NCBI GenBank assembly: GCA_022564295.1
Contig: JADFLR010000021.1
Location: 1-64,000 of the forward strand
Length of the DNA stretch: 64,000 nt
Direction: 5' to 3'
Source of the DNA: Bacteroidota bacterium
GTDB lineage: Bacteria > Bacteroidota > Ignavibacteria > Ignavibacteriales > Ignavibacteriaceae
Each line of letters opens with the position of its first letter. The first letter of the stretch is position 1. A program made the translations under genes and the position numbers. Positions 41,246-58,796 of this stretch are shown here, piece after piece. A model generated the notes under the pieces. It did no database searches. It worked only from the letters and a program-made list of their open reading frames with translations, and was not told the DNA's origin.

Positions 41246-41982
41246 TGCACTTCTTTAATTGAATTTAACAAATCAATATCCTGCTTTGCAAAGAATTCAT
41301 CCTTTGTTTTAAATTGAGTGAGTGTTCCGTCAGATAGTAAAGCAAGTTCATCACTAACCTTTTCTGCAAAGATGATATCGTGCGTAACGATTAAAACCAT
41401 TTTGTTCTCTTCTTCTGTAAACTTCTTAATTTTTAGCAATAACAAATTGGAGATTACGTAATCAATTCCCGTGGTTGGTTCATCGAGAATGATAAGCTGC
41501 GGTTCTGCAAGGAATGCTAATATCATACTCAACCGCTGAGCCATTCCACCGCTTACTTCGTAAGAATAAAGACGGGATATTTCATTGTAGTCCGGCAGAA
41601 GAAAATATTCTAATAATTCATCAATTTTATTTTTATCGGCGAGGGAGTTATCAAAATAATATCGAAATGTTTTTAAAGGATCAAAACTGTTTGCTGCATC
41701 CTGAAACACATATCGTATTTTATTTTTTCTTATCTGAAGTAATTCATCAGCACCGCAATCTGAAATATTTTTGTTTTCCCAAATAATATTTCCGTTCACA
41801 CTAAAAATATTTTCATTAAGAAGCTTTGTTAAAGATTTAATTAATGTTGATTTCCCCGTTCCGTTCTTGCCGATGATCGTATAAACCTTTCCTTCAGAAA
41901 GTTCGAAATCAATTTTCTTTAAAAGTAAATGTGTATTGTTATTGTTTCTTATAGTTATATTTTCAATATCAACTTTAAGCAT
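41242..41982 (-). CDS. peptide/nickel-type ABC transporter ATP-binding protein (DppD/OppD-like)
   Basis: A 246-residue ABC ATPase, shorter than usual OppD (about 320 aa) because the C-terminal oligopeptide-type extension is missing. Walker A is GKNGTGKST, signature VSGGMAQRLSMIL, Walker B LIILDEPTTGID and switch His VTHDI. It is transcribed divergently from the binding-protein gene, with 84 bp between them. With the next ATPase it forms the heterodimeric motor of the transporter. Confidence 0.9.
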   Translation of the reverse strand: MLKVDIENITIRNNNNTHLLLKKIDFELSEGKVYTIIGKNGTGKSTLIKSLTKLLNENIFSVNGNIIWENKNISDCGADELLQIRKNKIRYVFQDAANSFDPLKTFRYYFDNSLADKNKIDELLEYFLLPDYNEISRLYSYEVSGGMAQRLSMILAFLAEPQLIILDEPTTGIDYVISNLLLLKIKKFTEEENKMVLIVTHDIIFAEKVSDELALLSDGTLTQFKTKDEFFAKQDIDLLNSIKEVQ

Positions 41983-42066: not shown

Positions 42067-43722
42067 ATGATAAGAAAATCGTTATTCTTGTTGCCAATTC
42101 TCCTCATTATATTTTTATCTTCGTGCGGTACTAAAACCGAACACCCGAACAGAGTTGTAATTGGTATTCCCGCCGATGTTAATACATTTAATCCCTTGTT
42201 CGCTTTTAGCGTTGATGAAGGTCAAGTAACTGAATTACTTTATTTAAGCCTGGCAGATTTTAGATGGAATGAAAACCTGGGCGAACTTGAAGCGCACCCT
42301 ATGTTAGCCAATAGCTGGGAGTGGGCAGAAGATTCTTCTTCAATTACATTTTATTTACGCGATGATGTTATGTGGTCGGATAGCATTCCCTTAACTACCG
42401 AAGATGTAGTATTCTCGCTTGATGTTTATTCCGACCCGGTAGTGAACAGCAGATTGTATGGGTTTTTTGAAGACTTTTATACAGATGAAGAAAATCATAT
42501 TGATGTAAAAAAATCTTTTCTTGTTAAATCAGATTATGAATTACAAATAAACTTCAAACCAGGCGCTACGCCAAAATTAATTGATGTTGTTCATCCGGTA
42601 ATACCGAAACATATTTTTGATAAGTACGATAGAAAAGATATCGAAACGGCTGAAGCAAATTTCAATCCGGTTACAAACGGCCCTTTTGTTTTGAAAAAGT
42701 GGGACAGAAATCAAACTATTACTTTAGGTATTAATGAAAATTCTTTTTTATACAATCCAGAAAATATTAATGAACTGATTTTTAAAATTATCCCCGATTA
42801 CAAATCAAGATTGACTCAGTTAACAAAAGGTGAAATCGATTTGATGGAATTAATTAGCACAGAAGATATTGAAGAATTGAAGAATTTAGATAAAGTTACA
42901 TTGAGGACAATTGAGGGAAGAGAGTATGATTACGTTGCATGGAATAATATTGATCCGAACGTATACAAAGATGGTGGAGGAATCACCCCGAATAAATTGT
43001 TTGGAAAAAAAGAGGTAAGAATAGCACTTACTCATGCAATAAACCGGAAGGAGATACTTGAAGAATATCTTTACAATTACGGAGAGCTTGCTGCAACTCC
43101 AATTTCCCCAATCTTTAAGACATATATTAATTCTGATATCGAACAGTATAATTATGATCCTGAGAAAGCAAGAGAAATTCTTACAAAAGAAGGGTGGCGG
43201 GACACAAACAATAATGGTGTGATAGACAAAAACGGTGTTGAATTTGAATTTACGCTGAACATTCCCGGGGGTTCACCATTGAGAACTTATGCATCAGCAA
43301 TTATAAAAAATAATCTTAAAGCTGTTGGTATTAATATTAATGTTGAAACACTGGAAATGGGATCTTTAATGGATAAACTTTACTCAAAAAGCATGGATGC
43401 CTGGATGGCTGCATGGTATATTCCAATTCCAATAGAATTGAAAGCATTCTGGTATTCTGATTTACAAACCAGTCCGGTAAATTTTGTTAGTTACCAAAAT
43501 AAAAAAGCTGATAAAATTATGGATGAGTTAACAAAAAATTCTACGATTGATAAAAAGAAAAAATTGTACTTTGAGTTTCAGGAAATAATACACGAAGATG
43601 AGCCGATGACGTTTATGTATTGGACTTCAAACATCGTTGGTATAAATGAAAGTTTGAGAAACACGGGAATAGGACCTTTGGGCGCAATAACTCACTGCTG
43701 GGAATGGTCAGTTAAAAATTAG
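42067..43722 (+). CDS. peptide-binding lipoprotein (SBP_bac_5, OppA/DppA-like)
   Basis: A 551-residue family 5 solute-binding protein. The lipobox LSSC gives lipidated C20. The body has the family signature for peptide binding (LADFRW...; LTTEDVVFSLDVYSD; ALTHAINRKEIL). It should capture peptides outside the inner membrane and pass them to the permease pair. 248 bp separate it from the permease genes, unusual for an Opp operon, and this gap holds an inverted repeat. Peptide-length preference is not visible. Confidence 0.92.
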   Translation: MIRKSLFLLPILLIIFLSSCGTKTEHPNRVVIGIPADVNTFNPLFAFSVDEGQVTELLYLSLADFRWNENLGELEAHPMLANSWEWAEDSSSITFYLRDDVMWSDSIPLTTEDVVFSLDVYSDPVVNSRLYGFFEDFYTDEENHIDVKKSFLVKSDYELQINFKPGATPKLIDVVHPVIPKHIFDKYDRKDIETAEANFNPVTNGPFVLKKWDRNQTITLGINENSFLYNPENINELIFKIIPDYKSRLTQLTKGEIDLMELISTEDIEELKNLDKVTLRTIEGREYDYVAWNNIDPNVYKDGGGITPNKLFGKKEVRIALTHAINRKEILEEYLYNYGELAATPISPIFKTYINSDIEQYNYDPEKAREILTKEGWRDTNNNGVIDKNGVEFEFTLNIPGGSPLRTYASAIIKNNLKAVGININVETLEMGSLMDKLYSKSMDAWMAAWYIPIPIELKAFWYSDLQTSPVNFVSYQNKKADKIMDELTKNSTIDKKKKLYFEFQEIIHEDEPMTFMYWTSNIVGINESLRNTGIGPLGAITHCWEWSVKN

Positions 43723-43970: not shown

Positions 43971-44957
43971 ATGAATAAAGAGTTTCTTAAAGCTTTATTG
44001 AAAAGAATAATCAGTTCGCTGATAACCCTTTTTTTACTTATAAGTTTTTTATTTGTACTTATCAGGCTCTCACCGGGCGACCCGACACACAAATTTTTAT
44101 CGGCGAAATTTAGCCCCGAACTGAAAATAAAAGTCACTGCCGATTTTAAATTGGATCAACCGATATATGAACAGTATATAAATTTTGTAGCTAATATATT
44201 CAAGGGGGATTTGGGAATATCGTATAATTACAGGATGCCTGTTTTAAGTGTTGTGTGGCAATTCCTTTCTTTCACTTTGTTGTTCGCATCGATTTCGTTT
44301 GTAATTCAGATAATCATTTCATTTTACCTTTCAATAAAATCAATACGTAAAAAAGGCAATACGTTTGATAAAGTTGTTTCGAAACTTTCACTTATTGTTT
44401 ACGCTACACCTGCTTTTGTTCTTGGCGTGTTTCTAATTTATCTTTTTTCAGTTCAGCTAAATCTATTTCCTTCATCAGGTTCAAAATCATTAGACTTTGA
44501 TTCGTTTTCAATTGCGGGAAAAATCGGAGATTATTTTTGGCATCTAACTCTTCCGATAATAACGCTTTCATCAGCAGGAATAGCGATATTTTATAAATAC
44601 TTGCGGGATAATCTGGAAGAAACATATCAGCAGCCCTTCATATTAAATCTTAGGGCAAGTGGTTATGATGAAAAGGTAATATTAATAAAACACGTTTTGC
44701 CAAATGCAATTCGTCCGTTAATTTCTGTTGCAGGAATTGAACTTGGAATACTTTTAGGAGGGGCACTAATAACGGAAATAATTTTCGGGTTACCGGGAAT
44801 GGGAAGGTTGATGATGAGCTCTATTTTTGAGAGGGATTATCCGCTCGTTATCGGTTGTGCACTTACTGCAGGGCTGATTATTATAATTTCAAACTTCATT
44901 GCCGATCTGCTGAAAATGAAATTGGATAAAAGAATGATAAAGGGATTGATGAATTGA
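43971..44957 (+). CDS. peptide ABC transporter permease (DppB/OppB-like)
   Basis: A 328-residue inner-membrane permease of the BPD_transp_1 family with six predicted helices. It has a typical N-terminus (LLKRIISSLITLFLLISFLFVLIRLSPGDP, in parts) and the EAA-type loop that contacts the ATPases (ASGYDEKVILIKHVLPNA). Its stop overlaps the start of the second permease gene (TTGA), showing translational coupling. Confidence 0.93.
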   Translation: MNKEFLKALLKRIISSLITLFLLISFLFVLIRLSPGDPTHKFLSAKFSPELKIKVTADFKLDQPIYEQYINFVANIFKGDLGISYNYRMPVLSVVWQFLSFTLLFASISFVIQIIISFYLSIKSIRKKGNTFDKVVSKLSLIVYATPAFVLGVFLIYLFSVQLNLFPSSGSKSLDFDSFSIAGKIGDYFWHLTLPIITLSSAGIAIFYKYLRDNLEETYQQPFILNLRASGYDEKVILIKHVLPNAIRPLISVAGIELGILLGGALITEIIFGLPGMGRLMMSSIFERDYPLVIGCALTAGLIIIISNFIADLLKMKLDKRMIKGLMN

Positions 44958-46240
44958 AGTTTAAGCCTCAAATATGGCATCTGCTTTTATTCTTTTGGAT
45001 TACAATAATTATTATCCGCGTTGAGTTACTTATTGATTTAGTAGTTCTTTGGGCAAAATATTTTCTGTTATTTATAAGTGATTTTAACATTGCAATGCAA
45101 TTGCTTGATTTTAATTTGATTGATTCTATACTATCAATCAAGTTGTTTATAATTATCCCAATAATTCTTTTCCTTTTTAGAAAAAAAAGTTTATGGCTAA
45201 AAGCATCATTAAATTTTTCTTCTCTCACGTTAGTTATGCTTTTGCTTGCTTTTATTTTTGCACCGATTATTACAGATGAAAATCCCGAATTCCAAAAAGA
45301 TTTAAAGATGACGAAACTACTAACACCATTATCTTCGGTAAAAATTCTTCATCTTAGCAAAAAAGAGAACACACCAACATCAGCTTTAGAAAAATTTATC
45401 AATTATAAACATAAAATTATCAAACCATCTTATAATGAAAATATAATTTTAGTTAACAATGTAGAAGTGAAATCTGATCGCATTGTCTATTCACAAAAAA
45501 ATATACAAAAAGAGATTAATTTTTCTGATGTTCAAATAAAGGATGGAATTCCTTTTGTAACAAATAAAATTTTTATTTTAGGCACAGATGAATTTGGTAG
45601 AGATATATTCACACGATTAATTTACGGAGCAAGAATTTCACTGCTTGTTGGTATCGGTGCGGTAGTTGTATCTTTATTAATAGGTTTATCATTCGGATTT
45701 ATTGCTGGATTTAAAGGCGGTTTTATTGATATAATATTTAGCAGATTAACAGATTTGTTTTTAGCGTTTCCAATTATATACTTTATTGTTTTAATACTTG
45801 CATTGTTCGGCAATTCACTTTTAGCGGTAATTATTGTGCTGGGATTATCTGGCTGGATGGGGTTGTTCAAAATTGTTAAAAGCGAAGTGCTTGCTGAAAA
45901 AAATAAAGATTATATTATTACTGCTGGAATGTTAGGTCAGACGAATAGAAAAATTCTTACGAAAGAAATTCTCCCAGTAATATTTGTTCCATTGGTCGTT
46001 AATATAGTATTTCAATTTAGTAATGTTATTTTAGCCGAATCAGCATTAAGTTATCTTGGGCTTGGAACAGGAAACTCGTACCCATCATGGGGAGCAATGA
46101 TTGAATCAGGGCAGCGTTATATTATAAAGGCATGGTGGATGATTTCATTTCCAGGTCTCATTTTAGTAGCTACTCTTTTGTCAGCAAATGATTTTGGCAG
46201 AAGGTTGAATAAAGTTATTAATCCTGGAATCCGAAAATGA
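44954..46240 (+). CDS. peptide ABC transporter permease (DppC/OppC-like), extended
   Basis: A 428-residue permease, about 130 residues longer than typical DppC. The additional material is N-terminal: two or three extra hydrophobic segments (residues 5-110) and a polar, probably periplasmic insert (about 110-190) before the usual GTDEFGRDIFTRLIYGARISL motif. The EAA loop (AGMLGQTNRKILTKEILPV) is intact. The start is a TTG overlapping the dppB stop. Its own stop overlaps the start of the kinase gene (ATGA), tying the transporter to the signalling genes. Confidence 0.9.
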   Translation: MKFKPQIWHLLLFFWITIIIIRVELLIDLVVLWAKYFLLFISDFNIAMQLLDFNLIDSILSIKLFIIIPIILFLFRKKSLWLKASLNFSSLTLVMLLLAFIFAPIITDENPEFQKDLKMTKLLTPLSSVKILHLSKKENTPTSALEKFINYKHKIIKPSYNENIILVNNVEVKSDRIVYSQKNIQKEINFSDVQIKDGIPFVTNKIFILGTDEFGRDIFTRLIYGARISLLVGIGAVVVSLLIGLSFGFIAGFKGGFIDIIFSRLTDLFLAFPIIYFIVLILALFGNSLLAVIIVLGLSGWMGLFKIVKSEVLAEKNKDYIITAGMLGQTNRKILTKEILPVIFVPLVVNIVFQFSNVILAESALSYLGLGTGNSYPSWGAMIESGQRYIIKAWWMISFPGLILVATLLSANDFGRRLNKVINPGIRK

Positions 46241-49200
46241 TAAACTGCAGATTTGAAATACTTAAGCAAATTGGAAAAGGCAGAAGCGAAGTTTTTCTCT
46301 GCAAGGATATTGATTTCAACGGAAGGGAAGTTGCAGTTAAATTTTTACCTCCTAATGTAAGCGAAGAAGAATTAAAATACTTCCGGGATGAATTTTTCAC
46401 ATTAAGAAAATTAGATCATCCTAGTATTATTAAAGCATTTGAAATTGGCGAAGTTGTAATTGTTGACCAGGATGATCCCATACAGGTCGGTTCAAATTTT
46501 ATTTTACTCGAATACTTTGAGTCAACCGAGTTAACAAGTTTCAGTGAGCTGAAAGAAGAGAATAAACTAAAAGAGATTTTAAAACAGCTTTGCTCGGTTT
46601 TGTATTACCTTCACCAATCAAACTATATCTATTATGACCTCAAACCGGAAAACATACTTGTATCGGTTAATATAAATTCTACTCAGATCAAACTAATTGA
46701 TCTCGGTCTCGCAGAATATTTACCCAACCAAAATGAGCATGTTATTAAGGGAACTGCACAGTACATTGCTCCGGAATTGTTAAAGAAAGAACCTCATGAT
46801 TTCAGGGTGGATTTATACTCGTTTGGTATTTTGCTATATGAGATAATTTACGGTCATCTTCCTTTCGACGATTCCGATGAACTGAAAATTTATAAAGCAC
46901 AGGTTGAAGAAAAGTTTAACTTTCCGGAATCATCTCGGTTTAGTTCCAACTTAATCGAAATAGTTAAAAAACTTTTAGAAAAAGATCCGGAGAAAAGATA
47001 CCGGGATGCATTACAGGTTATTTGTGATTTAGGTTTTGAAATTGATGCTTCGATTTATCATAATTTTGTTCCAGCTAAAGTGTTCAGCAGCAGGCAGGAT
47101 TTCATGAATATTCTCACTGCGTACATTAACGACAAAAAAAGCAGTGAAGTGTTTTCGGTAAAGGGATTTGACGGTGCGGGTAAAAGCGCATTATTGAATA
47201 GGATGTATGAGGTGATCACAAATTCCATACTTATTAGTAATACGCAAGGAATAAGCGGAATAAATTTGATAAAACATTTTATTAAAAGGTTAATATTTAC
47301 TGGAAGCATATTCTTTAATTTAAATGATAACGAGAAGGAACATATCCTATCATTTATTACTAAATCAGAAAAAGATTATCTTGATGAACTGCATTCGATA
47401 ATTTCAATCATAACAAACAAATCGCAATTTGTGTTATTGGTTGATGATTACAACTTGTTTGATTCACTAGCAAAGGAAGTTATTTCTGAACTGATCCCGA
47501 TTTTCCAGGTGAATGGTTTAAAGGTTATAATTTCGGAAGCATCAGATTTTGATTATTCATCAGATAACATTAATAATCTTCGAGAAGTAATAGTTGGTTC
47601 ATTTACACAAACACAATTAAACGACTATTTAGAATTGGCTTTTTACGAATTGTTTCCGAGGGAAGATGTTAGTGAACTCATACTCCGTTTTGCCGACTTA
47701 CTCCCCGGCAATGTTATAGATTTTATTAAGGATATTATAAATCTACAAATCATACTTTTTGATAAGGATGGCATAACCATAAACGAAAACCTGGAAAAGA
47801 TTTCAGGTATTGAAGGTTCGATGAGTGGAATTTATGATTTACGGCTTTCGAATCTGAAAGCGGATGACATTCGTACGGCAAAAATAATTTCTGCTTTTGA
47901 GGGAAGTGTAGAGCAAAATTCACTTTCAAGGATGTTGGATATTGATCAAACAAAATTAGATGAAATATTGTCTAATTTACAAATCAATAATGTTATTCAA
48001 CCCTTTGGTGCAAACACCGTTCCGGTAATTGCATCGGATGGATTGAAAAAGCATATTTATTCCTTCGTTGATAATAAAGAAGAATTGCATGCTTCCCTTG
48101 CTGAATCGATTGCAACAAAATTACCCGGATTTAGCAGGGGCGAATTTGCACGCCAATATGAACTTGCCGGCAATTTTGAAAAAGCGTATTCAATATGGAA
48201 TGAAGAAATTGATAGCGCACAAAAACTATCGGCATTTTCTTATATTCGAGGTATTTTAACTCATATACTTGAACTGCCACTTTCCGAAACTGTAAAAAAT
48301 GAAGTAGACTTTAGATTAGCAGAAACTTTATACAAACTTAGTGATTACAATACGGCGCTAAATATCATTGAGCAAATTGAAATCGAACCGCTTCCTAAAG
48401 ATAAACTGCTCGAACTGTATATTATGAAGGGAAGCGCGATGATAAATGGTGGCAAAATAGAAGAAGGTAAAGAACTTATTAAATCTTTAATTCCTAAAGT
48501 TGAAAACGAGTATAGAAAAAGCAAGTTGTTAGTTGAAATTGCCTATGCTAAATTTGATTTAAATAATTTTGCCGAAGCAGCCGAAATGTGTAACGAAATC
48601 TTGTTAAGGCAGGAAGTCTCCAATGAAGATAGAGGAAGAATTCATAATTTATTGGGAATGTATTACCATTTTAACGAAAATGATTCGAGCTCTGCCCTAT
48701 TACAATTTGAAAAAGCTTTAAGTTGTTATGAAAAAGAAGGTTTACTTAGTAAAGAAGCTGCTATTGAAGTAAATATTGGTGTTATGCATAACATTATTGG
48801 TAATAAAGATCTGGCAGAAGCATCCTGGAAAAAGGCATTAAATATTAACCGTTCAATTGGAAACTTGGTACAGGAAGGAGTGCTGCTACTAAATAACGGC
48901 GTACACTATTTCGAAAATATAAATTTTGTTGTGGCAATTGATTATTATAAAAGAGCCTATAATATATTTCTTAGTTTGGGTAATACGAAGAATAGGGGTC
49001 TTGCATTAAGCAATTTGGGTGAAGTTTATTTTATAGTATGTGAATACCAGAATGCGTTTGAAGCGTTAGAAGAATCAAAAATAATATTAGGAGAGTCTGA
49101 TAATTTAGAAGAGTTCATCCCCGTTTTAGTTTTGTTAGCTCACTTTCATTTTACAATTGGTAATATTAAAGACTTAACCAACTTGAATAATGAAACCCTT

Positions 49201-49815
49201 AAGTTATTGGAAAATCCTGAAGTGAAGAAGAAATATAAAAGTGAAATAATGCTCCTTAATAATTTAAGTTTAATAGCAACTGGGAAAGAGATACAAATAG
49301 AAGACCTTAAAGTAATCAGAGATGAATATTTTGACAAGGAGGATTTAAAAAATTATGTTACAGTTAATTTAATTTTGTTAAATTATCTATTAGATTCAAA
49401 AAAAATCTCCGAAGCAATGGACGAATTAAATAAATTACGATTCATTGAAGTATGTGAAAAAAATAATATTTACAACGCATCCAGGGAATACTTGCTCGGG
49501 GAAGTATCGTCTTCAAATGGTCATAATGATTCGTCATCACCTATTGAGCATTATGAAAAAGCATATGAACTGTTATCGGATGAAAGCATTGTTGAATTAA
49601 CATGGAGAGTATTATTTGCTCTTGCTGAAAGCTATACACAGAGAGGCAATTTCAATAAAGCAAAAAATTTTATTATTTATGCGAGGGATCTTATATATTT
49701 AATTGCTGAAAATATAGAAACAACTCATTTTAAAACTGCATATCTGCAGAAAGAAGAAAGACGCACAGCCATTGAAATACTTGAAAAACTTCATAATGTT
49801 TATGGGACACATTAA
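46237..49815 (+). CDS. Ser/Thr protein kinase-P-loop (STAND-like) ATPase-TPR giant
   Basis: An 1192-residue, apparently cytoplasmic sensor. N-terminal eukaryotic-like kinase (about 6-270): glycine loop IGKGRSEVF, K35 (VAVK), catalytic loop YYDLKPEN (D134, K136, N139; YYD instead of HRD), DLG at 155-157 instead of DFG, and APE (GTAQYIAPE). It is followed by a P-loop ATPase domain (Walker A GFDGAGKS, 310-317; Walker B FVLLVDD, 398-404) and about 520 residues of TPR repeats (about 670-1192). This is the kinase-STAND-TPR layout seen in AfsR/PknK-like regulators. Overlaps both neighbours: dppC-like gene (ATGA) and the sigma-54 activator (TAATG). Confidence 0.85.
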   Translation: MINCRFEILKQIGKGRSEVFLCKDIDFNGREVAVKFLPPNVSEEELKYFRDEFFTLRKLDHPSIIKAFEIGEVVIVDQDDPIQVGSNFILLEYFESTELTSFSELKEENKLKEILKQLCSVLYYLHQSNYIYYDLKPENILVSVNINSTQIKLIDLGLAEYLPNQNEHVIKGTAQYIAPELLKKEPHDFRVDLYSFGILLYEIIYGHLPFDDSDELKIYKAQVEEKFNFPESSRFSSNLIEIVKKLLEKDPEKRYRDALQVICDLGFEIDASIYHNFVPAKVFSSRQDFMNILTAYINDKKSSEVFSVKGFDGAGKSALLNRMYEVITNSILISNTQGISGINLIKHFIKRLIFTGSIFFNLNDNEKEHILSFITKSEKDYLDELHSIISIITNKSQFVLLVDDYNLFDSLAKEVISELIPIFQVNGLKVIISEASDFDYSSDNINNLREVIVGSFTQTQLNDYLELAFYELFPREDVSELILRFADLLPGNVIDFIKDIINLQIILFDKDGITINENLEKISGIEGSMSGIYDLRLSNLKADDIRTAKIISAFEGSVEQNSLSRMLDIDQTKLDEILSNLQINNVIQPFGANTVPVIASDGLKKHIYSFVDNKEELHASLAESIATKLPGFSRGEFARQYELAGNFEKAYSIWNEEIDSAQKLSAFSYIRGILTHILELPLSETVKNEVDFRLAETLYKLSDYNTALNIIEQIEIEPLPKDKLLELYIMKGSAMINGGKIEEGKELIKSLIPKVENEYRKSKLLVEIAYAKFDLNNFAEAAEMCNEILLRQEVSNEDRGRIHNLLGMYYHFNENDSSSALLQFEKALSCYEKEGLLSKEAAIEVNIGVMHNIIGNKDLAEASWKKALNINRSIGNLVQEGVLLLNNGVHYFENINFVVAIDYYKRAYNIFLSLGNTKNRGLALSNLGEVYFIVCEYQNAFEALEESKIILGESDNLEEFIPVLVLLAHFHFTIGNIKDLTNLNNETLKLLENPEVKKKYKSEIMLLNNLSLIATGKEIQIEDLKVIRDEYFDKEDLKNYVTVNLILLNYLLDSKKISEAMDELNKLRFIEVCEKNNIYNASREYLLGEVSSSNGHNDSSSPIEHYEKAYELLSDESIVELTWRVLFALAESYTQRGNFNKAKNFIIYARDLIYLIAENIETTHFKTAYLQKEERRTAIEILEKLHNVYGTH

Positions 49816-51194
49816 TGGATGAAGTTCCAGTAAACATCAAGGTTTTCTCTGATTCGAATGATGTTGTTTCGATAACATCTGCATTGAAACAATTATCATT
49901 AAAGGGTATTCCCATTAATTTTACATTCCCCGAAACCTTTATACCTGAAGATAATGATATTATAGTCTTACACCTTGAATCAAAGGAATCCCTTAAATTA
50001 AAAGATGTAATTGCAGTACGAAATAAGATTAACAATAAAATCCTCATTATAATACGCAATGCAGATGCACTATTTGTAACCTCGCTGCTTAAATTCGGTT
50101 TTTATAACATTTTTGTTTTCCCCTATGAAGTTTTAAAATTCACATCATTACTTGCTGAAATAATATCTAACAAAACTTATATAACTGAAGGTAATAGATT
50201 AGGTACATTTGGTGTAAACAGGCAGGGTATCAATTCTATAATAGGAGAATCAGAAAGTTTATTGCGTGTGCTAAACCTTGCAAATAAAGTTTCTGAAAAA
50301 AGCAATGCAAACGTTCTCATACTTGGTGAAACTGGTACAGGAAAAGGACTTTTTGCACGTGCTATTCATAATAACGGGAAAACGAGAGCATTTCCGTTTA
50401 TTGATATCGTTTGTACCGCTATTCCTGAAAATCTTCTTGAATCAGAACTTTTTGGATATGAAGCAGGCGCTTTTACGGATGCAAGGACAAGAAAAATCGG
50501 ACTTTTCGAACTTGCAGACAAAGGAACTCTATTTCTTGATGAGATAGGAGATTTAAATATAAACATTCAAACAAAATTGTTAAGGGCAATAGAGAAAAAA
50601 GTTATCAAAAGACTTGGTGGTGTGGCTGATATACCAATAAATGCACGGATTATATCTGCTACAAACAGAGATCTTGATTCGATGGTAGAAGATAATCTTT
50701 TTAGAAGAGATTTATTTCATCGATTGAATGTTGTATCAATTGAAGTTCCTCAGCTACGCGAGAGGGAAGATGATATTGTGATACTCGCAAATCATTTTAT
50801 TAAAGAGTTTAATATTCAGTTTGAAAAATCAGTTAAGAAAATCGACAAGGATTTGCAACACTTTCTTAAGGGTTATTCGTGGCCCGGAAATGTTAGAGAA
50901 TTAAGGAACGCAATTGAGAGGGCAGTTCTTTTAAGTGATAGTGGCAAGATTAGTATTGATGATTTTTCCAACTTAATAAGAACAACTCAAATTGAATTTC
51001 AGGATAATATCACAAGTGAAAAAATCCCGAATAATATTGTTAGAATGGATATTAATTATGGTACAACCGGGTTAAGAAAGCTTGAAAAGCATTACGCACG
51101 TGAAGTTTTGAAACGGCTAAACGGTAATAAAACTCAAGCTGCAAGATTATTAGGGATTTCCAGACCAAAATTAGATACATTATTGAAAGAATAA
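49815..51194 (+). CDS. sigma-54-dependent transcriptional activator with degenerate receiver domain
   Basis: A 459-residue enhancer-binding protein. Residues ~5-120 fold-match a CheY-like receiver, but the phosphoacceptor Asp is His (H53 in IIVLHLE), the Thr/Ser is R81, and the conserved Lys is F102 (FVFPYE). The AAA+ domain (about 140-385) is intact: Walker A GETGTGKG (171-178), sigma-54-contact loop GAFTDA (218-223; usually GAFTGA) and Walker [10 protein letters not shown] (D242/E243). A Fis-type HTH (about 415-459; [22 protein letters not shown] in pieces) ends it. Starts one base inside the kinase stop codon. Activation cannot be by ordinary Asp phosphorylation. Confidence 0.9.
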
Positions 51195-51333
51195 AATAAT
51201 CTAAAATAATTCTGGGATTTTAAAACCTTCAAAAATTCAAAAATTTCAAAGAAATTTCATATGCTAATTCATTCAGATTTTGTTTAAATATCGTAATAAT
51301 ATTTTACAATCCTCACTAATTACAGTTGCTAAA

Positions 51334-51348
51334 TGGTAATTATTACCA
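51334..51348. promoter_or_regulatory. 15-bp palindrome, possible activator-binding site
   Basis: TGGTAAT-T-ATTACCA is a perfect dyad with a single central base. It lies about 53 bp upstream of the candidate sigma-54 promoter, where an enhancer-type site for the activator encoded just upstream could be. Binding is inference. Confidence 0.35.
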
Positions 51349-51400: not shown

Positions 51401-51416
51401 TGGCATAAACATTGGC
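51401..51416 (+). promoter_or_regulatory. near-consensus sigma-54 (-24/-12) promoter
   Basis: TGGCATAAACATTGGC compares with TGGCAC-R-N4-TTGCW. The -24 GG and spacing are right; the invariant -12 GC is GG here, so the match is one important base short. It would start transcription near 51,427, about 87 nt before the repeat-protein gene and 200 bp past the sigma-54 activator gene. Confidence 0.35.
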
Positions 51417-51467
51417 TATTTAGAAGGCTTTTAAGGGCTACATGTATGCTTATGAGGGTGAGGTACC

Positions 51468-51494
51468 ATGCAGTTCTTATTGCGTCATTATTAA
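51468..51494 (+). CDS. possible 8-codon leader ORF
   Basis: ATG at 51468 follows a good ribosome-binding site (AGGGTGAGG, 4 bp spacing) and encodes MQFLLRHY before a stop at 51492-51494, 19 bp ahead of the repeat-protein gene. It could be a leader peptide controlling the next gene, or chance. Confidence 0.2.
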   Translation: MQFLLRHY

Positions 51495-51513
51495 CTAATT
51501 CTGAGAGGGCGCT

Positions 51514-51999
51514 ATGCGTTTAATTGTATTATCCCTTCTTGTTGGGGGACTTTTCATATCTTGTTACGCGCAGGTTGCTGATAATGTTCAGAAAGCAGAC
51601 CGTTATCGTGTAACGCAGGATAATATAATAATAATTGTGTCCGAGACCCACCCCTCATCCTCAAATGGTGAATATTTTCTGAATGATGCTGTACAAGTTG
51701 AATTCAGATCTAATTCACAACTAGAGGAACTTGGAGCCCGTTACGGTTTTACAAGATCAAGCTCACAGCTTGAAGAACTTGGAGCCCGTTACGGTTTTAC
51801 AAGATCAAGCTCACAGCTTGAAGAACTTGGAGCCCGTTATGGGTTTACAAGATCAAGCTCACAGCTTGAAGAACTTGGAGCCCGTTATGGTTTTACAAGA
51901 TCAAGCTCACAGCTTGAAGAGCTTGGAGCCCGTTATGGGTTCACGAGATCAAGCTCACAGCTTGATGAACTTGGAAGCCGTTATGCATGGTCGAGATAA
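51514..51999 (+). CDS. exported protein of six tandem 16-residue repeats; candidate peptide precursor
   Basis: A 161-residue protein. Signal peptide (about 1-19, MRLIVLSLLVGGLFISCYA) and a unique region (20-65) precede six head-to-tail repeats (66-161). Copies 2-5 are SSSQLEELGARYGFTR; copy 1 begins SNSQ; copy 6 is SSSQLDELGSRYAWSR. Each unit ends in Arg, so a trypsin/gingipain-like protease would release 16-mers (or 11+5-mers if cleaving at both Arg). No known family was recognised. RBS GAGAGGG precedes the ATG and a strong terminator closes the gene, so it is a monocistronic unit. Alternatives: a surface or adhesion protein with repeats. No cysteines are in the repeats. Confidence 0.75.
   Translation: MRLIVLSLLVGGLFISCYAQVADNVQKADRYRVTQDNIIIIVSETHPSSSNGEYFLNDAVQVEFRSNSQLEELGARYGFTRSSSQLEELGARYGFTRSSSQLEELGARYGFTRSSSQLEELGARYGFTRSSSQLEELGARYGFTRSSSQLDELGSRYAWSR
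51709..51996 (+). repeat. six tandem 48-bp repeats
   Basis: The 48-bp unit (16 codons) is repeated six times with no spacers. Copies 2-4 differ by one or two silent changes (TAC/TAT, GGT/GGG), copy 5 by a few, and copy 6 is diverged in sequence. Near-identity suggests recent expansion by slippage or recombination, and copy number may vary between strains. Confidence 0.95.
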
Positions 52000-52245: not shown

Positions 52246-55200
52246 ATGTTTAGAAAACTTATTCTTCTTTTCTTTCTTTTTTATTCATTGGGTGCAGGTC
52301 AGGAAATTTCCAATATTAGCGTTATCGAAGAAAATAATGTATATCTCGTTCCTTCTTACAATTTTCAGGGTTCTATTTACATATCTTTATCACGATTAGC
52401 AGATATTCTCGGGTATAAATCTATTTACAATGAGGGCAATAAAAAGTTAACAATTTATTTTCAAGATTTTAAACTCGACGCTATAAAAAGTAATCCCTAC
52501 CTATTAATAAAAGAAAAAAGCACAAATAATGTTGAAACATTTCAATTGCCTACGTCTATTCATTTTAATAAAAATGAGGTTTTTATTCCGTTAAACGCAA
52601 CTATCAATCTGCTAAGTACTTTATCCGGCAAGGAAATTATAATTCTTAGCCCCAACAAATTATTTATTACTGGAAATTTAGCAAAAGAAAGAAATAAACT
52701 TTTTTCGGTTATACTATCAAACGAAAATTCGGACACATTTCTTCAAATTAAGATGTTAAAACATGCTAAGTATTCAATCAGAAGAAACCGGGAAAACGAG
52801 TTCTCTATCTTTTTTAGAAATACTTCGATTGATTTTGAGAATGATGAAGGATTTTCTCTTCAAGGTAATGTAAAAGATATTGATCTAATTTCAAACAAGG
52901 AAGATGCCATTATAAAAATAAAATTTGATTCGAGTTCAATGGCTTATGAAATTATTGAAACTAAAAATAATAATGAATTTATCTTACACTTTTTTTATAG
53001 GGAGGAATCTGATTGGTATGAAAAAGAGAGTGAACATTTCAAATTGATTTACAGGGAAAGTCATGCACATTTAGTAAATCATATTCTAAGCAGTGCTGAA
53101 AACTCGCTCAAGCGGTTAATACCAATATTTGATTATACACCAAAGGAGAAAATAATAATAAATACTTATGATGTTAGTGATTATGGATTTGGAGCAACGA
53201 CGAATGTTCCTCAGAATTACATTCGGTTGGAAATTGAATCATTTGAACCAGGCTATGAAGCAGTTCCTTACAACGAAAGGATTCAATGGCTTCTTAGCCA
53301 TGAGTTGGTTCATATTGTTGTAAACGATGAGGAATCTGATCTGGAAACAGTAGTGAGAGATTTATTCCGAAAGGTCCCTCCCGAAAAATCCCAGCCATTT
53401 ACAACTATATATAGTGTTCTCGGAAACTTTACCCGTTACACTCCGCGTTGGTATCAGGAAGGAATTGCAGTATTTATGGAAACATGGTTAAGCGGAGGTT
53501 ACGGCAGAACTTTAGGCAGTTTCGATGAAATGTATTTCAGATCATTAATACTTGAGGGCAAAAAGTTTCCATCACATTGGGATATTGAAACTATACTTAC
53601 TCACAATTCGATTTTTCTTGAGAACATCTTTTATTTTTACGGAACGCGATTCGTGTCTTACTTAGCAATTCACCACGGTGTTGATAAACTAATCGATTGG
53701 TTTAAAACATACCCCAATCAAAATTTAGTCGGTTTCATCGGCAAATTCAATGATGTGTTCGGAGAAGATTTTTATGGTGCATGGAAGGAGTTTGCAAAAG
53801 AAGAAAAAATATTTCAAGAAAAAAACATAGAAGTTCTTAAATCATCGCAACTAACTAAAGTTAATAAGCTTAGTAAAAATCCTTTTGGTTGGGTTACACA
53901 GCCGTACTTCGATTCACAAACATTATCAATTATTTACGGTTACCATCAGTCAGCTCATTTAGCAACATTGCAAAAATTTCACTTACTTACGCGCAATTCA
54001 GAAGATTTAATGTCTCTACCAACTCCAAGTATGTTTCAGGTGGCTTCTACTGCGTTTGATGCGAGCAATAACCTTTTCTTCTATACCACTAACAATAATA
54101 AGTTGTACCGGGATGTTTGGGTGGTGAATATGCTAACAAAGGAGGAAAAGATAATTTTTCCGGATAGCAGAATTGGCAATATTACGATTAGTACAAGCAC
54201 ACACGATCTATGGGGAGTTCAGCAGCAAGGTGGTTTGTCAACATTAGTTGTTTCGGCATATCCATATCAGGAGATTGAACCGATATTTTCTTTTGACTTC
54301 GGTGAAGAGTTATCTCATTTGGCTGTTTCAAAATCAGGTGAAAAACTTGCTGCAGTATTACATCGGGCAAACGGTCGGCAGTCTATCATTCTATTTGATA
54401 TTGGTGAATTATTATATGGTGAATCAATGTCTTTTAAAATATTAACATTGGATGGATCTCCGGAGAATCCTTCCTGGAGTGAAGATGCCAAGACTTTATA
54501 TTGGAATGCCTATACCAACGGTGTATCGAATATATATCGTTATTATTTTAGTGATTCCACCACAACAGCTATAACACATTGTTTAACTGGATTATTCAAA
54601 CCTATTGAGATTAGTCCAGATTCTGTTTTTGCTTTTGAATTTACTACCGATGGTTTTCTTCCGGTAATGATTGCAAATAAACCTGCAGTTTATTTGCCTG
54701 CAATTCAGTATTACGGACAAAGGATAATGAATAAAAATCCAAAAGTGTACGACTGGGTTTTAAAGGATGCTGCAAAAATAGTTGATGAAAAAAGTTTTAA
54801 AAAAGAAGAGGCTTATAACGGATTAGAAAATCTGCACATACATTCCTTGGTTCCGGTACTAAGTGGTTTTCAAAGCCAGATGGTATTTGGATTTTTTACT
54901 CGTATTTCCGATCCATTACTTTTACATGATTTTTATATGGAATTTGGAATTTCTCCTTTAAATGAAACTCCAAGTTTCCCTTTCTGGCATTTACGGTTTA
55001 AGTACGATTACAAACAAAGATTCTATATAGAATATTCTTTGAATGGGCCTGATTTCTTTGACCTTTTCAATTCCCGTAAAAGGGGGATGATCGGGTCACA
55101 ATTTAAACTTGGGCATACACATTATTGGTTGTTCGATAAACCTCATACTATTAAGCAAGAAGCCTCTATAGCATTTTTTAGAGGTGTAGAATTTATTAAT

Positions 55201-55881
55201 GATAACCTTGTAAGGGTTTCGGAGCCGGATTTTGGTGTTGCTGTATATAATTTGACTTCGAAAAATCTTAGGCGAACAATAGGGAGTTCCGGTTATGAGC
55301 AAGGCGATCAAGTTTCTTTCACACTTACATTGTATGGTACTAATTTTAATGAAAATGTAGAAGCACTTTTAAATGGTTATTTAGAATATGAAAGATATTC
55401 GTTGTGGATTGCAGACCACAATGTTGCTCATTTAAAATTAGCAGGTGGATATATGCTAGATAATGAAGAAGTTATTCAGGGAAGATTTTATTTTGGAGGT
55501 TTTGGTAACAGAGGAGTGGATAATGGACTCATAAGGCAGTTCAGAAAAGTTTTCAGGTTTCCCGGAATTCCAATTTATAGTATGATGACGACTAAATTTC
55601 TCAAATTAATGTTCGAAAATGCCTTCCCCCCGTTAAGGGTTAGCGGCTGGGCTTTAGGTAATCAAGTTATAAACCACTTTGATTTTTCGATTTATTCGCA
55701 ATCTTTAATAACTGAATCGGAATTTGGAAACTATTGGATAGATATTGGCGCACAATTAGACATTAAATTCAAACATTGGTATAATTTGGAAACGACATTT
55801 TCGGCAGGTGTAGCGAGAGCGTGGTCGGAAAAAATGACAGATTGGGAGTGGTTTTTATCACTTAAATTGCTAAAAAATTAA
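52246..55881 (+). CDS. surface gluzincin protease (peptidase MA-like) with beta-propeller and C-terminal outer-membrane barrel
   Basis: A 1211-residue exported protein. Signal peptide (about 1-19). Residues ~20-130 resemble a copper amine oxidase N-terminal domain and ~140-250 an AMIN-like beta-sandwich. A peptidase-MA-type gluzincin domain (about 255-540) has the zinc motif HELVH (H352, E353, H356) and a third ligand E405 (WYQEGIAVF). TolB-like propeller blades follow (about 550-860). The last ~300 residues have strongly alternating beta-strands ending in Trp/Phe (WEWFLSLKLLKN), as in an outer-membrane barrel. Probably anchored with the protease facing outwards. Preceded by 246 bp including the terminator. 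Substrate unknown; the repeat protein just upstream is a candidate. Confidence 0.75.
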   Translation: MFRKLILLFFLFYSLGAGQEISNISVIEENNVYLVPSYNFQGSIYISLSRLADILGYKSIYNEGNKKLTIYFQDFKLDAIKSNPYLLIKEKSTNNVETFQLPTSIHFNKNEVFIPLNATINLLSTLSGKEIIILSPNKLFITGNLAKERNKLFSVILSNENSDTFLQIKMLKHAKYSIRRNRENEFSIFFRNTSIDFENDEGFSLQGNVKDIDLISNKEDAIIKIKFDSSSMAYEIIETKNNNEFILHFFYREESDWYEKESEHFKLIYRESHAHLVNHILSSAENSLKRLIPIFDYTPKEKIIINTYDVSDYGFGATTNVPQNYIRLEIESFEPGYEAVPYNERIQWLLSHELVHIVVNDEESDLETVVRDLFRKVPPEKSQPFTTIYSVLGNFTRYTPRWYQEGIAVFMETWLSGGYGRTLGSFDEMYFRSLILEGKKFPSHWDIETILTHNSIFLENIFYFYGTRFVSYLAIHHGVDKLIDWFKTYPNQNLVGFIGKFNDVFGEDFYGAWKEFAKEEKIFQEKNIEVLKSSQLTKVNKLSKNPFGWVTQPYFDSQTLSIIYGYHQSAHLATLQKFHLLTRNSEDLMSLPTPSMFQVASTAFDASNNLFFYTTNNNKLYRDVWVVNMLTKEEKIIFPDSRIGNITISTSTHDLWGVQQQGGLSTLVVSAYPYQEIEPIFSFDFGEELSHLAVSKSGEKLAAVLHRANGRQSIILFDIGELLYGESMSFKILTLDGSPENPSWSEDAKTLYWNAYTNGVSNIYRYYFSDSTTTAITHCLTGLFKPIEISPDSVFAFEFTTDGFLPVMIANKPAVYLPAIQYYGQRIMNKNPKVYDWVLKDAAKIVDEKSFKKEEAYNGLENLHIHSLVPVLSGFQSQMVFGFFTRISDPLLLHDFYMEFGISPLNETPSFPFWHLRFKYDYKQRFYIEYSLNGPDFFDLFNSRKRGMIGSQFKLGHTHYWLFDKPHTIKQEASIAFFRGVEFINDNLVRVSEPDFGVAVYNLTSKNLRRTIGSSGYEQGDQVSFTLTLYGTNFNENVEALLNGYLEYERYSLWIADHNVAHLKLAGGYMLDNEEVIQGRFYFGGFGNRGVDNGLIRQFRKVFRFPGIPIYSMMTTKFLKLMFENAFPPLRVSGWALGNQVINHFDFSIYSQSLITESEFGNYWIDIGAQLDIKFKHWYNLETTFSAGVARAWSEKMTDWEWFLSLKLLKN

Positions 55882-55968: not shown

Positions 55969-57279
55969 ATGAAGTTCTCAGAATTCAAAGAAAATATCGA
56001 TGCTGGTTTTAAAGCTACTCTTGGAAATGAAGAAACATCCGAGCGGGTAAAGAATCTTGAGGCAATACTCAACATTTTGAACACCATAAACCGCTCTCTT
56101 ATACTTGATGATGTACTTGAGCTTGTACTCAAAAATGCAATAAGACTTACAAATTCAGAGCGTGGGTTTATTGTGTTAAAGAACGACGAGGATAACCTTG
56201 AGTATAAACTAGGCTTAGATTCTGAAAAAAATGAATTGCCCGAAGAATCTTTTAATATAAGTAATACGGTTGTTAATGATGTGTTTCTCACTGGGCAATC
56301 AATTTTTCTCGAGGGTGCACAGAGTGATGCAAATTATGACCCATCGAAAAGTATTTTACGATTAGACCTTCAAACAATACTTTGCTCTCCCTTAATAACC
56401 GATGGAAAAAAAATAGGAGTAATTTATGTTGATAGTAAACACCTTCAAAAAATTAAGGTTCGTGAAATAACCGGAACATTTGAAATACTTGCCGGTCAGG
56501 TAGCTGCTGCTATCAGAAACGCACAATTGTACAACGGGCAGGTTGCAGCAAATAATGCTTTGCAGGAAGCAAATGCTCATCTTATTCAGGCAGAACGTAA
56601 AACATTAAAATCGAGTATTGATGCAGAAATCGGTCAATCGCTTCAGGGGCTTGTACACCTAGCTCTGCTTGAGAATGAAAGTCTTATGAGGACAATTGAA
56701 AAATCCCAAAAGGAATATGAAAGCAACTCAAATGGAAACAATACACTTGTTCTCGATAGATTAAAATTAAAATCCAGGGTTGCTATTGATAGTATCAGAA
56801 ATATTCAGAAATATGCACAGGTGTTATTAGAGACTTCTCTTCTCAATCTGAATAAAGACAGCGGCGACATTAACCATACAATTCAATCGGTAATTAAATA
56901 TTTATCTCCGATGAAAAAGTTTTATTTAGTCACTTTTAATACTGAATTAAATAAATTACCCAACTGTAATTTTGATTCGGAGCAAATACAACATTTAATG
57001 GTTCATTTATTTACAAATGCGGCAGAAGCAAAACGAGATACCACGATAAGTATAAAGTCTGGTTTTGAAAAAGAAAAAATAACTTTGGAGATTAAAGATG
57101 ATGGTTCCGGATTTCCTTCTAAAATATTGAAAAATCCTTTTGGCTCGGCTATGGACAGGAAAGGGAGTTATGGGTTATATCTTTGCAAAAGTATAGTTGA
57201 TAGACATAACGGAACAATGGAATTAGAAAATTCTAAAGAAGGCGGTGCACTCATAAAAATCACATTACCGGCAGCTTAA
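55969..57279 (+). CDS. GAF-domain sensor with HATPase domain, phosphoacceptor His not evident
   Basis: A 436-residue cytoplasmic sensor. GAF domain (about 45-190; IRLTNSERGFIVLKND, SPLITDGKKIGVIYVDS) is followed by a helical dimerisation region and a HATPase_c domain: N box HLFTNAAEAKRD (N350), G1 DDGSGF and G2 GSYGLYLCKSIV. The dimerisation helix (about 200-290) lacks a recognisable H-box histidine in an HELRTP-like setting. It may be a pseudo-kinase or a partner that uses the next gene's kinase. Only 2 bp separate it from the hybrid kinase gene, so the pair is an operon. Confidence 0.78.
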   Translation: MKFSEFKENIDAGFKATLGNEETSERVKNLEAILNILNTINRSLILDDVLELVLKNAIRLTNSERGFIVLKNDEDNLEYKLGLDSEKNELPEESFNISNTVVNDVFLTGQSIFLEGAQSDANYDPSKSILRLDLQTILCSPLITDGKKIGVIYVDSKHLQKIKVREITGTFEILAGQVAAAIRNAQLYNGQVAANNALQEANAHLIQAERKTLKSSIDAEIGQSLQGLVHLALLENESLMRTIEKSQKEYESNSNGNNTLVLDRLKLKSRVAIDSIRNIQKYAQVLLETSLLNLNKDSGDINHTIQSVIKYLSPMKKFYLVTFNTELNKLPNCNFDSEQIQHLMVHLFTNAAEAKRDTTISIKSGFEKEKITLEIKDDGSGFPSKILKNPFGSAMDRKGSYGLYLCKSIVDRHNGTMELENSKEGGALIKITLPAA

Positions 57280-57281
57280 AA

Positions 57282-58796
57282 ATGTCAGAGTCACTATTAA
57301 AATATTTTCGCTTAATGTATGATTCAATTCGTTTTCCTATTCAGGTTGTGAATAAGGGGGGTTACGTTGTTTATGTGAACGAATTATTTACCATCCAATG
57401 GGGCTACACACTTTCGGAAATTAAAGAATATAATATTTTCCAAGATAACGAATTAGTGAGGAAAGGTGTACAGCAATTAATTAATGATGCATTTGAAAAA
57501 GAAAAATATTCAACCTTTGATAATTATGTTGATTCACTTCTTATAAACAGAGAGTTTGCAGTGCCATTATTACGAACAAGTATCTTTCCTATTAACTATA
57601 ACGGTGAGAGCTATGTAGTTCTTCTTCACGAAGATCAAACAGAACAAGTGCTGGCTGAAGAAGAAATAAAAAAGGCGAGAGATATGGGTAAAGAAGCCGA
57701 GAGACTAAAAGATACTTTTTTAACCGTGCTTTCGCACGAATTAAGAACACCGCTTAACATAATATTAGGTTATTCAACAATAATAAGAGAAAATCTTATA
57801 GATAAATTTAATGCTGAAGAAAAAATATACCTTGATAATCTATATGCAGGAAGTACTAGGTTGTTTAAAAGTATAACACAAATGCTTGAGTTTGCGCAGA
57901 TTGAAGCTGGTAATTATAAAATGAGTATTGACTCCTATAATCTGTGTGAAGTAGTACAAAGCTGTATTGTTACTAACAATCAAAATGCAATTGATAAAAA
58001 TCTGGAAATCAAAGCTAATTTTGAAAAGAACAAAATATATGCGGATATGGATTTACAATGCACAGAAACAGCTATAAATAATCTTTTGGATAATGCAATT
58101 AAGTTTACCCGACATGGCTTTATTGATATCGAGGTAAGTTTAACGGAAGACAGAGGTTTAGCAACCTGTAAGATAAAAGATACTGGAATTGGTATTTCCT
58201 CTCAGTATTTAGATCATCTGCACCAGCCATTTAGCCAGGAGGATTTGAACATCGGCAGGAACTATGAAGGAAATGGACTAGGATTAGCCCTTTCCAAAAA
58301 GTATATAGAAAAAATGGGCGGTTCAATTTTGGTTGATAGTATTAAAGGAGTTGGAACTACTGTTACGGTTACTCTCCCGTTATCAAAAGAGCAATTCCGT
58401 GAACTGCCTGAATCGCCTGCAGTTGAGGGAGTCGATTTCAATAAAATATATATGTTTGATGATACACAAGAATCGTATAATTTGATAAAAGTGTTCCTCA
58501 GAGATACATACAAATTTGAAAATCATAATTTTGATAATTACGATATTGACTTTGTTAAAGAAGATTATTTTTCGATAATTATGTTGGATGTACCTAAAAA
58601 TTTGTGGGATAAATGTCTTGAGATGGTAAGAGAGATCAAGGATAACGATCCCTTTAAACGACCGGTGCTTGTTCTATCAAGTGAGTTTATGCACGACAAG
58701 ATTGCCAGTTTTTATCAATCAGGAGCCGATAAATTTTTGGTAAAACCATTTTCGAAAAATCATTTGCTTGCAGCAATAGAAAAAATCACAGCTTAA
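57282..58796 (+). CDS. hybrid PAS-histidine kinase with C-terminal receiver
   Basis: A 504-residue hybrid kinase. N-terminal PAS domain (about 10-120), HisKA box SHELRTPLN with H152, HATPase_c (NLLDNAIKFT, DTGIGIS, GNGLGLALSKKYI) and C-terminal receiver (about 385-504) with phosphoacceptor D436 (IIMLDV) and Lys K488 (VKPF). All catalytic residues are present, in contrast to the preceding GAF protein and the sigma-54 activator. No membrane helix, so the signal is probably intracellular. The final output is not encoded here. Confidence 0.9.
   Translation: MSESLLKYFRLMYDSIRFPIQVVNKGGYVVYVNELFTIQWGYTLSEIKEYNIFQDNELVRKGVQQLINDAFEKEKYSTFDNYVDSLLINREFAVPLLRTSIFPINYNGESYVVLLHEDQTEQVLAEEEIKKARDMGKEAERLKDTFLTVLSHELRTPLNIILGYSTIIRENLIDKFNAEEKIYLDNLYAGSTRLFKSITQMLEFAQIEAGNYKMSIDSYNLCEVVQSCIVTNNQNAIDKNLEIKANFEKNKIYADMDLQCTETAINNLLDNAIKFTRHGFIDIEVSLTEDRGLATCKIKDTGIGISSQYLDHLHQPFSQEDLNIGRNYEGNGLGLALSKKYIEKMGGSILVDSIKGVGTTVTVTLPLSKEQFRELPESPAVEGVDFNKIYMFDDTQESYNLIKVFLRDTYKFENHNFDNYDIDFVKEDYFSIIMLDVPKNLWDKCLEMVREIKDNDPFKRPVLVLSSEFMHDKIASFYQSGADKFLVKPFSKNHLLAAIEKITA

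Follow-up and report, generated by a model that had tools for sequence, protein, structure and literature searches.

An exported tandem-repeat protein of Ignavibacteria and lipoproteins with a co-varying C-terminal heptapeptide: a candidate peptide-signaling system

Organization of the Locus

The window, i.e., the whole 64-kb stretch of DNA analyzed here, carries a run of genes in the order OppF-OppD (reverse strand) followed, on the forward strand, by a solute-binding protein, OppB, OppC, a kinase-AAA-TPR protein, an activator, REP, MetPep, a GAF kinase, and a receiver kinase. The OppF-like ATPase (40436–41245) matches ABC_tran, with oligo_HPY below its cut-off, and the OppD-like ATPase (41242–41982) matches ABC_tran. 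The oligopeptide-type solute-binding protein (42067–43722) matches SBP_bac_5; Opp4A is the best match but lies below its cut-off. The OppB-like (43971–44957) and OppC-like (44954–46240) permeases are assigned by family match. A complete Opp-type gene set adjoins the kinase, activator, and REP genes.

The kinase gene (46237–49815) overlaps both oppC and the activator gene. Its product is a Ser/Thr protein kinase with an AAA-type region and C-terminal TPRs (Pkinase and TPR_12 matches; AAA_16 below its cut-off) and is the proposed peptide sensor. The activator (49815–51194) is a sigma-54-dependent enhancer-binding protein with Sigma54_activat and HTH_8 matches. Its loop reads GAFTDA, not GAFTGA; the others among 16 loci have GAFTDA, GAFTNA, GAFTSA, or GAFTGA. 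Beyond REP lies its usual neighbor, MetPep (52246–55881), an exported protein of 1211 residues with an HELVH motif and PD40-like repeats and the proposed processing protease. A GAF-domain histidine-kinase-like protein (55969–57279) is conserved in the locus, and a histidine kinase with a receiver domain (57282–58796) is often kept next to it.

The REP Protein and Its Repeats

REP (51514–51999, forward strand) is a 161-residue exported tandem-repeat protein, a candidate precursor, recognized by its open reading frame, its repeats, and its homologues. The gene is present in a single copy in the window's genome. By eye, the protein starts with a Sec signal peptide (MRLIVLSLLVGGLFISCYAQ; 51514–51573), and relatives have SGYAQ or SGNAQ at the corresponding place. 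The N-terminal part of the mature protein (51574–51708) includes the segment NVQKADRYRV; V25, A28, and R30 are invariant in 19 aligned rows. A conserved segment resembling NVExAxRYRV opens mature REP in the 19 REP proteins aligned. Six 16-residue units follow (51709–51996). Units 1–5 have the sequence S[NS]SQLEELGARYGFTR and end in GARYGFTR, that is, with the tail heptapeptide ARYGFTR; unit 6 ends in GSRYAWSR, with the tail SRYAWSR.

At the DNA level, the repeat has a period of 48 bp, 5.6 copies, 93% matches, and a score of 451, and it is the sole tandem repeat in the window at a score of at least 50. The sequence-only reading had described six 16-residue units in an exported protein, with near-identical DNA copies and no recognized family, and the open reading frame, the signal peptide, and the repeat score bear this description out. 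Searches of REP against Pfam and NCBIfam gave no convincing family. A marginal match to DUF3782 (PF12644) scores 25.1 against a cut-off of 24.4 bits, its best stretch covers 16 of 78 positions, and no single stretch passes; we take it to be chance on repetitive sequence. Structure prediction, suggested earlier as a check, was of low confidence: AlphaFold models of three REP sequences have no confident fold (pLDDT 38, pTM 0.16).

Among 59 genomes, REP genes were found in 21 (E 1e-3), the window's own included; a match in G014 with nine in-frame stops was left out of the count. A profile search of a class-wide sample, a wider search across Ignavibacteria of the kind proposed earlier, found REP in 28 of 391 genomes; the 28 belong to families f1, f2, and f14. 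These homologous arrays, in 21 of 59 and 28 of 391 genomes, exclude chance as an explanation of the REP array. Unit spacing is constant at 16 residues in 18 of the 19 measured arrays, the remaining array having both 15 and 16. The number of units does vary, as had been anticipated, from 2 to 16 across homologues, with only two intact units in G034; contigs often end inside the array, and unit counts from such assemblies are lower bounds. DNA identity of the units is 0.82 to 0.995 inside 19 arrays and 0.75 to 0.85 between seven array pairs; REP arrays are homogenized within each genome.

Two other expectations of the sequence-only reading need revision. A diverged last unit is found in the window's REP but is not the rule, as a different tail occurs in 4 of 18 arrays, the window's included. 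Nor is Arg general at the unit end: several genomes have Lys, and G020 has Thr in all 11 units. G020 also has Thr at this position in two of its three lipoproteins (see below). It follows that the position belongs to the shared peptide, and Arg as a cleavage mark is unsupported.

Gene Order and the REP–MetPep Pairing

The kinase gene lies upstream of REP in 16 of 20 relative regions, with nothing or the activator between them, plus a lipoprotein gene in G008. The G004 region stops at a contig end within REP. In the exceptions, G047, G048, and G057 (family f2), the two parts of REP are on different contigs: the 5′ part is found at the edge of one, in a different neighborhood away from the kinase; the 3′ part, with MetPep beside it, is at the edge of a second; and the kinase locus lies elsewhere. 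G033 has no activator gene between kinase and REP. REP-MetPep is flanked by Opp genes in G149 and G236; G382 has Opp-kinase-EBP-REP-MetPep-lipoprotein-TPR in a single series.

Among the 59 genomes, the set with a MetPep orthologue (E 0) coincides with the 21 that have REP; of the remaining 38, three have a relative at about 30% identity. In the class sample, orthologues (E 1e-250 or better) are found in 26 of the 28 REP genomes, G287 and G188 being those without, and in 1 of the 363 others. In G221, the one non-REP genome, MetPep neighbors a tagged lipoprotein, and because the contig breaks off immediately upstream of MetPep, REP may be missing from the assembly. Farther MetPep relatives (about 30% identity), as in G019, G038, and G050, are found in 35 more genomes of the 391 that have neither REP nor a close MetPep orthologue.

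HELVH is kept in all 15 MetPep homologues read, and H333, E334, H337, and E386 are invariant in 3 aligned rows. MetPep has the HExxH and downstream Glu of a zinc metallopeptidase, with the identity of the ligand Glu presumptive. Pfam gave no peptidase family at E 0.5 for three members, the PDB sequences gave no peptidase at E 1, and AlphaFold models of three sequences have no confident fold (pLDDT 41, pTM 0.31). Most simply, MetPep would be the REP-processing enzyme, with the HELVH motif alone pointing to a peptidase. Its substrate is proposed to be REP because the 11 lipoprotein-only genomes described next have no MetPep orthologue.

Lipoproteins Ending in the REP Tail

A second family, unrelated to REP, consists of lipoproteins of about 190 residues (168–243 for whole proteins) that carry the tail heptapeptide of the REP unit at or near the C-terminus. 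The window's genome encodes four that end in GARYGFTR, on two contigs apart from that of the window; the Ala is peculiar to the REP of this genome, and no HFS context precedes it. Of two degenerate tail-plus-stop searches of the same genome, the first gave five places, four of them the GARYGFTR lipoprotein ends (control 0); the second gave four, namely REP, two lipoproteins ending SRYGFVN, and an additional site (control 1).

Lipoprotein tails were sought within the last 40 residues only, and the tail counts omit six matches in which no tail could be read (fragments and a masked stretch). The tail is at the exact C-terminus in 57 of 80 lipoproteins and within the last 40 residues in the other 23. 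HF precedes it in 74 of the 80. The lipoprotein domain normally ends HFSxY, and this domain end by itself explains part of the lipoprotein tail. The six lipoproteins without HF before the tail keep the tail nonetheless, and four of them carry the Ala of the window's genome.

REP is absent from 11 of the 32 kinase genomes, and all 11 have lipoproteins. In G022, G024, G026, G027, G032, and G049, the activator is followed by a lipoprotein with the end HFSR[YF]x[WF]xx, in some cases plus further residues; lipoproteins lie in the kinase region in G043, G052, G055, and G058 and on another contig in G013. Most lipoprotein genes have a gene for a TPR protein of about 410 residues beside them: of 70 lipoprotein hits, counting fragments, 52 have a TPR gene no more than 2.5 kb away. 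By a crude test, a signal-like start is absent from all 45 distinct TPR proteins.

A second tail class, SR[YF]GF[VIL]N, which ends in Asn and is independent of the REP tail, is found in several genomes, often beside genes of the Arg-ending class (L082, 7642–8187 and 11428–11973; also L093, L094, L096, and L156). It is perhaps a second signal. In G251 (L212, 7485–11443), Opp genes and one TPR gene accompany four lipoproteins, all ending SEYGFVR, with Glu for Arg, and there is no REP match.

The kinase accompanies both carriers. At E 1e-100, 32 of the 59 genomes have the kinase; REP or a lipoprotein is present in all 32 and in none of the 27 without the kinase. In the class sample, a kinase match at E 1e-70 accompanies REP in 27 of its 28 genomes; G079 is the exception, with a more distantly related kinase beside its Opp genes. 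REP or a lipoprotein is matched in 50 of 51 kinase genomes of this sample, G112 having neither. Lipoprotein matches extend further: 26 of the 68 genomes with one have no kinase at E 1e-70, and class-wide lipoprotein matches are weak in families such as f18. Either the lipoprotein domain is broader than the system or the kinase has diverged past the E 1e-70 cut-off.

Promoters and Putative Activator Sites

The consensus for sigma-54 promoters has −24 and −12 elements, and upstream of REP a strict match, TGGCATAAACATTGG, is found at 51401–51415 on the forward strand. Two inverted repeats, GTAATAATATTTTAC (51293–51307) and GGTAATTATTACC (51335–51347), are putative activator sites on the same strand, each at a conserved distance from the −24 box. 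The 5′ leader extends from 51427 to 51513, its 5′ end being guessed from the promoter.

Taking one REP gene per genome from 32 of the 34 REP genomes, the strict pattern precedes 21 of 32 REP genes and 29 of 62 lipoprotein genes, compared with 4 of 324 control genes of REP loci; shuffles give 0.24 patterns per 32. The pattern was picked after inspection of some loci, that is, the enrichment test is not blind. In 20 of the 21 pattern-bearing REP genes, an inverted repeat GTAA..TTAC lies 105–108 bp upstream of the −24 box, and in 18 of the 21 a second lies 61–65 bp upstream. This constant spacing is as expected of activator sites, which the inverted repeats would then be. A −24/−12 promoter with upstream activator sites is thus predicted for the window's REP and 20 further REP genes of the 32.

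The strict pattern is missing in the other 11 REP genes (G033, G035, G047, G048, G057, G079, G149, G188, G236, G296, and G352). G033, the locus without an activator gene, has neither the sigma-54 pattern nor the inverted repeats. In family f14 (L202, L203, and L153), REP tails are of the SAY or SYY type and no strict pattern lies upstream, so REP regulation may differ in this family. The leader motifs GGGTGA and GTCAT are kept in the window and six aligned relatives. A search of the leader against Rfam gave one match, far below its cut-off; its predicted structure is weak, with no compensatory pairs in the window and relatives.

Co-Variation of the Tails

The REP tail and the lipoprotein tails change together from genome to genome. 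Over 25 genomes, the best-match tail agrees at 6.08 of 7 positions on average, compared with 4.15 in genome shuffles (0 of 20000); agreement is 7/7 in 11 genomes and at least 6/7 in 21. The tail test leaves out the remaining 9 of the 34 REP genomes, for want of a lipoprotein match: 4 of the first 21 and 5 of the 13 new ones. With one genome per genus (14 genera), the observed value was reached in 0 of 500 shuffles in each of 200 draws. In the first 17 genomes, the best-match mean is 6.24 versus 4.43 shuffled.

For the 13 new REP genomes, the prediction of a lipoprotein tail matching at least 6/7 was fixed before looking. Eight were testable, with matches of 7, 7, 6, 6, 6, 6, 5, and 3; that is, six of the eight agree with the prediction, and the mean of all eight is 5.75 versus 3.94 shuffled (3 of 20000). 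Within genus g1, the observed value is reached by 2 of 120 permutations; within g4 it is reached by 1 of 6, too few to tell.

Rare residues are altered in both families, as follows: Ala in G000, the AT end in G020, IFAK in G035, AFAK in G281, SRW in G010, and SAY in G079 and G149. Poor matches are G008 (3/7; SVYGYSK versus SRYTWAK), G382 (3/7), G296 (5/7), and G001 (4/7), whose readable tail is solely of the SRYGFVN type. Gene conversion from one gene family to the other was considered and is ruled out by differing codons: codons for the same residue are identical within genomes in 343 of 979 comparisons (0.35), against 0.29 between genomes, the comparisons being pooled over units and not independent. 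Since the two genes use different codons, the tails are kept alike by selection at the peptide level, not by recent copying.

Of the sequence-only reading, the exported precursor with a variable unit number is kept and is the best-supported account of REP; an Arg cleavage mark and a rule of a diverged last unit are unsupported. Unrelated lipoproteins with a matching, co-varying tail give the precursor account more support than was available to that reading.

A Proposed Peptide Signal and Its Alternatives

We think it rather probable that a peptide signal specific to each lineage is made from either of two precursors, REP or the lipoproteins, and is imported by Opp, read by TPR proteins, and amplified through sigma-54. 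The larger proposal is a complete intracellular-receptor peptide-signaling system in a Gram-negative phylum, with a heptapeptide, two precursor families, its own protease, a dedicated Opp importer, a kinase-TPR protein and Rap-like TPR proteins as readers, and sigma-54 amplification; to us, it could fall either way. The basis is at the sequence level: tails that co-vary, a gene order that is conserved, promoters with a pair of inverted repeats at even spacing, and the REP–MetPep pairing. To our knowledge, no such peptide-signaling systems have been known in this Gram-negative group.

Cleavage, import, TPR binding, kinase control, and population sensing, which we infer, would fit together as follows. 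REP would be the multi-copy precursor, with the unit tail as the signal core ([G]ARYGFTR in the window's genome), and the lipoproteins would be single-copy carriers of the same peptide at or near the C-terminus. The peptide would be freed outside the inner membrane, from REP most likely by the neighboring MetPep, and taken up through the adjacent Opp importer. The imported peptide would be bound by TPR proteins, namely the kinase beside Opp and the ~410-residue proteins beside the lipoprotein genes. The kinase would control the adjacent activator, and activator and sigma-54 would drive REP and many lipoprotein genes, closing a positive loop. REP would raise the dose, since each molecule holds several peptide copies and is served by a dedicated partner for their release. 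Release, import, and sensing of the peptide are proposed because import genes, a TPR kinase, and TPR proteins without a signal-like start adjoin the heptapeptide carriers.

An unlikely but serious alternative is that the heptapeptide is a recognition or sorting tag, read by an envelope machine of each lineage on the lipoproteins and, in many copies, on REP, with Opp and the kinase only regulating the genes. The exact C-terminal position of 57 of the 80 lipoprotein tails is as in C-terminal sorting signals, and MetPep, which looks exported and pairs with REP, might seem the reader. MetPep is, however, not a common reader, as tagged lipoproteins occur where there is no MetPep orthologue, in 11 of the 32 kinase genomes; in the 59 genomes the common partner of both carriers is the importer and kinase locus. 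Neither the TPR proteins without a signal-like start beside the lipoproteins nor the further residues after 23 of the 80 tails are expected of such a tag. A fibre-like or adhesive surface protein, with the lipoproteins as anchors or nucleators acting through a short homotypic segment, is a good deal less probable. CsgB and CsgA of curli share a homotypic segment in this way, and the homogenized repeats, the export, and the lineage-specific match between an anchored and a soluble protein would all suit a fibre. Here, though, the sharing is limited to 7 to 8 residues and does not span the 16-residue unit, the lipoproteins occur without REP in 11 of 32 kinase genomes, G034 has just two intact units, and the oligopeptide importer and TPR proteins beside both carriers would be left unexplained.

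Opp-type importers usually serve peptide feeding, and the MetPep motif is like that of an exported peptidase. Opp, the kinase, and the activator might then sense food peptides and induce exported degradative proteins, REP being a minor exported product; we give this little credence, as it leaves unexplained why unrelated exported proteins, many with the same promoter type, have a co-varying heptapeptide. Slightly less credible still, and already disfavored, is that the likeness of the tails is a by-product of the HFSxY domain end, chance, and shared descent of the genomes. ZU5-like domains usually end HFSxY, and HF does precede the tail in 74 of the 80 lipoproteins. Against this stand the six lipoproteins that keep the tail without HF, four of them with the Ala of the window's genome, together with the shuffles using one genome per genus and the new genomes and the 2 of 120 permutations in genus g1. 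A precursor-borne peptide signal is the reading we prefer. Its self-contained locus predicts the signal sequence for each species, making the question directly testable.

Comparison with Known Systems

In the Rap-Phr scheme of Bacillus, an RRNPP system, a secreted precursor with a C-terminal peptide is followed by Opp import and a cytoplasmic TPR receptor, the receptor gene adjoining the precursor gene. The REP system would resemble it in all of these respects. In contrast to Rap-Phr, the lineage here is Gram-negative, the precursors are ~190-residue lipoproteins and a tandem-repeat protein, one sensor candidate is a Ser/Thr kinase with TPRs, and the output is through sigma-54. One report (PMC10075063) states that in RRNPP systems the propeptide gene is adjacent to the gene of the intracellular receptor, that RRNPP_detector looks for propeptides of 10–100 residues, and that a large survey covered Firmicutes and viruses only. 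Another (PMC12998947) describes peptide signals with cytoplasmic TPR receptors for Gram-positive bacteria. Among the matches listed in our literature search, titles and abstract openings mention no peptide signaling in Ignavibacteria and no Gram-negative intracellular-receptor peptide system.

REP and the lipoproteins are exported precursors with a peptide near the C-terminus, the window's REP itself ending in a unit, and putative TPR receptor genes are adjacent to precursor genes. At 161 residues for REP and 168–243 for the lipoproteins, the precursors exceed the 10–100 range. A profile of the TPR proteins scores designed TPRs, LGN, and several kinesin light chains above Rap3T, RapF, and RapJ; the TPR likeness to Rap thus appears generic. 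The system would work like Rap-Phr, with parts not shown to be homologous, and we do not claim RRNPP membership because the precursor size lies outside the detector's range and the receptor homology is unspecific.

Other parallels touch single parts of the system. The sex pheromones of enterococci are also lipoprotein-borne peptide signals imported by an Opp-type system, but they are cut from lipoprotein signal sequences, whereas the peptide here would come from the C-terminal tail, and they have no repeat precursor. In the REP system, one peptide could occupy two unrelated precursors and change in both. Precursors of the yeast α-factor type, like REP, hold tandem peptide copies in variable number behind a signal peptide; REP differs in having no KR/STE13-type spacer, and the yeast system is eukaryotic with a different receptor. 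The tandem array of REP is accompanied by its own peptidase-like partner. Finally, the ATPase-TPR architecture of MalT-like STAND regulators and the domains of sigma-54 activators are found here as well, but here the former is joined to a Ser/Thr kinase in a single protein, whose gene runs in line with those of an oligopeptide importer.
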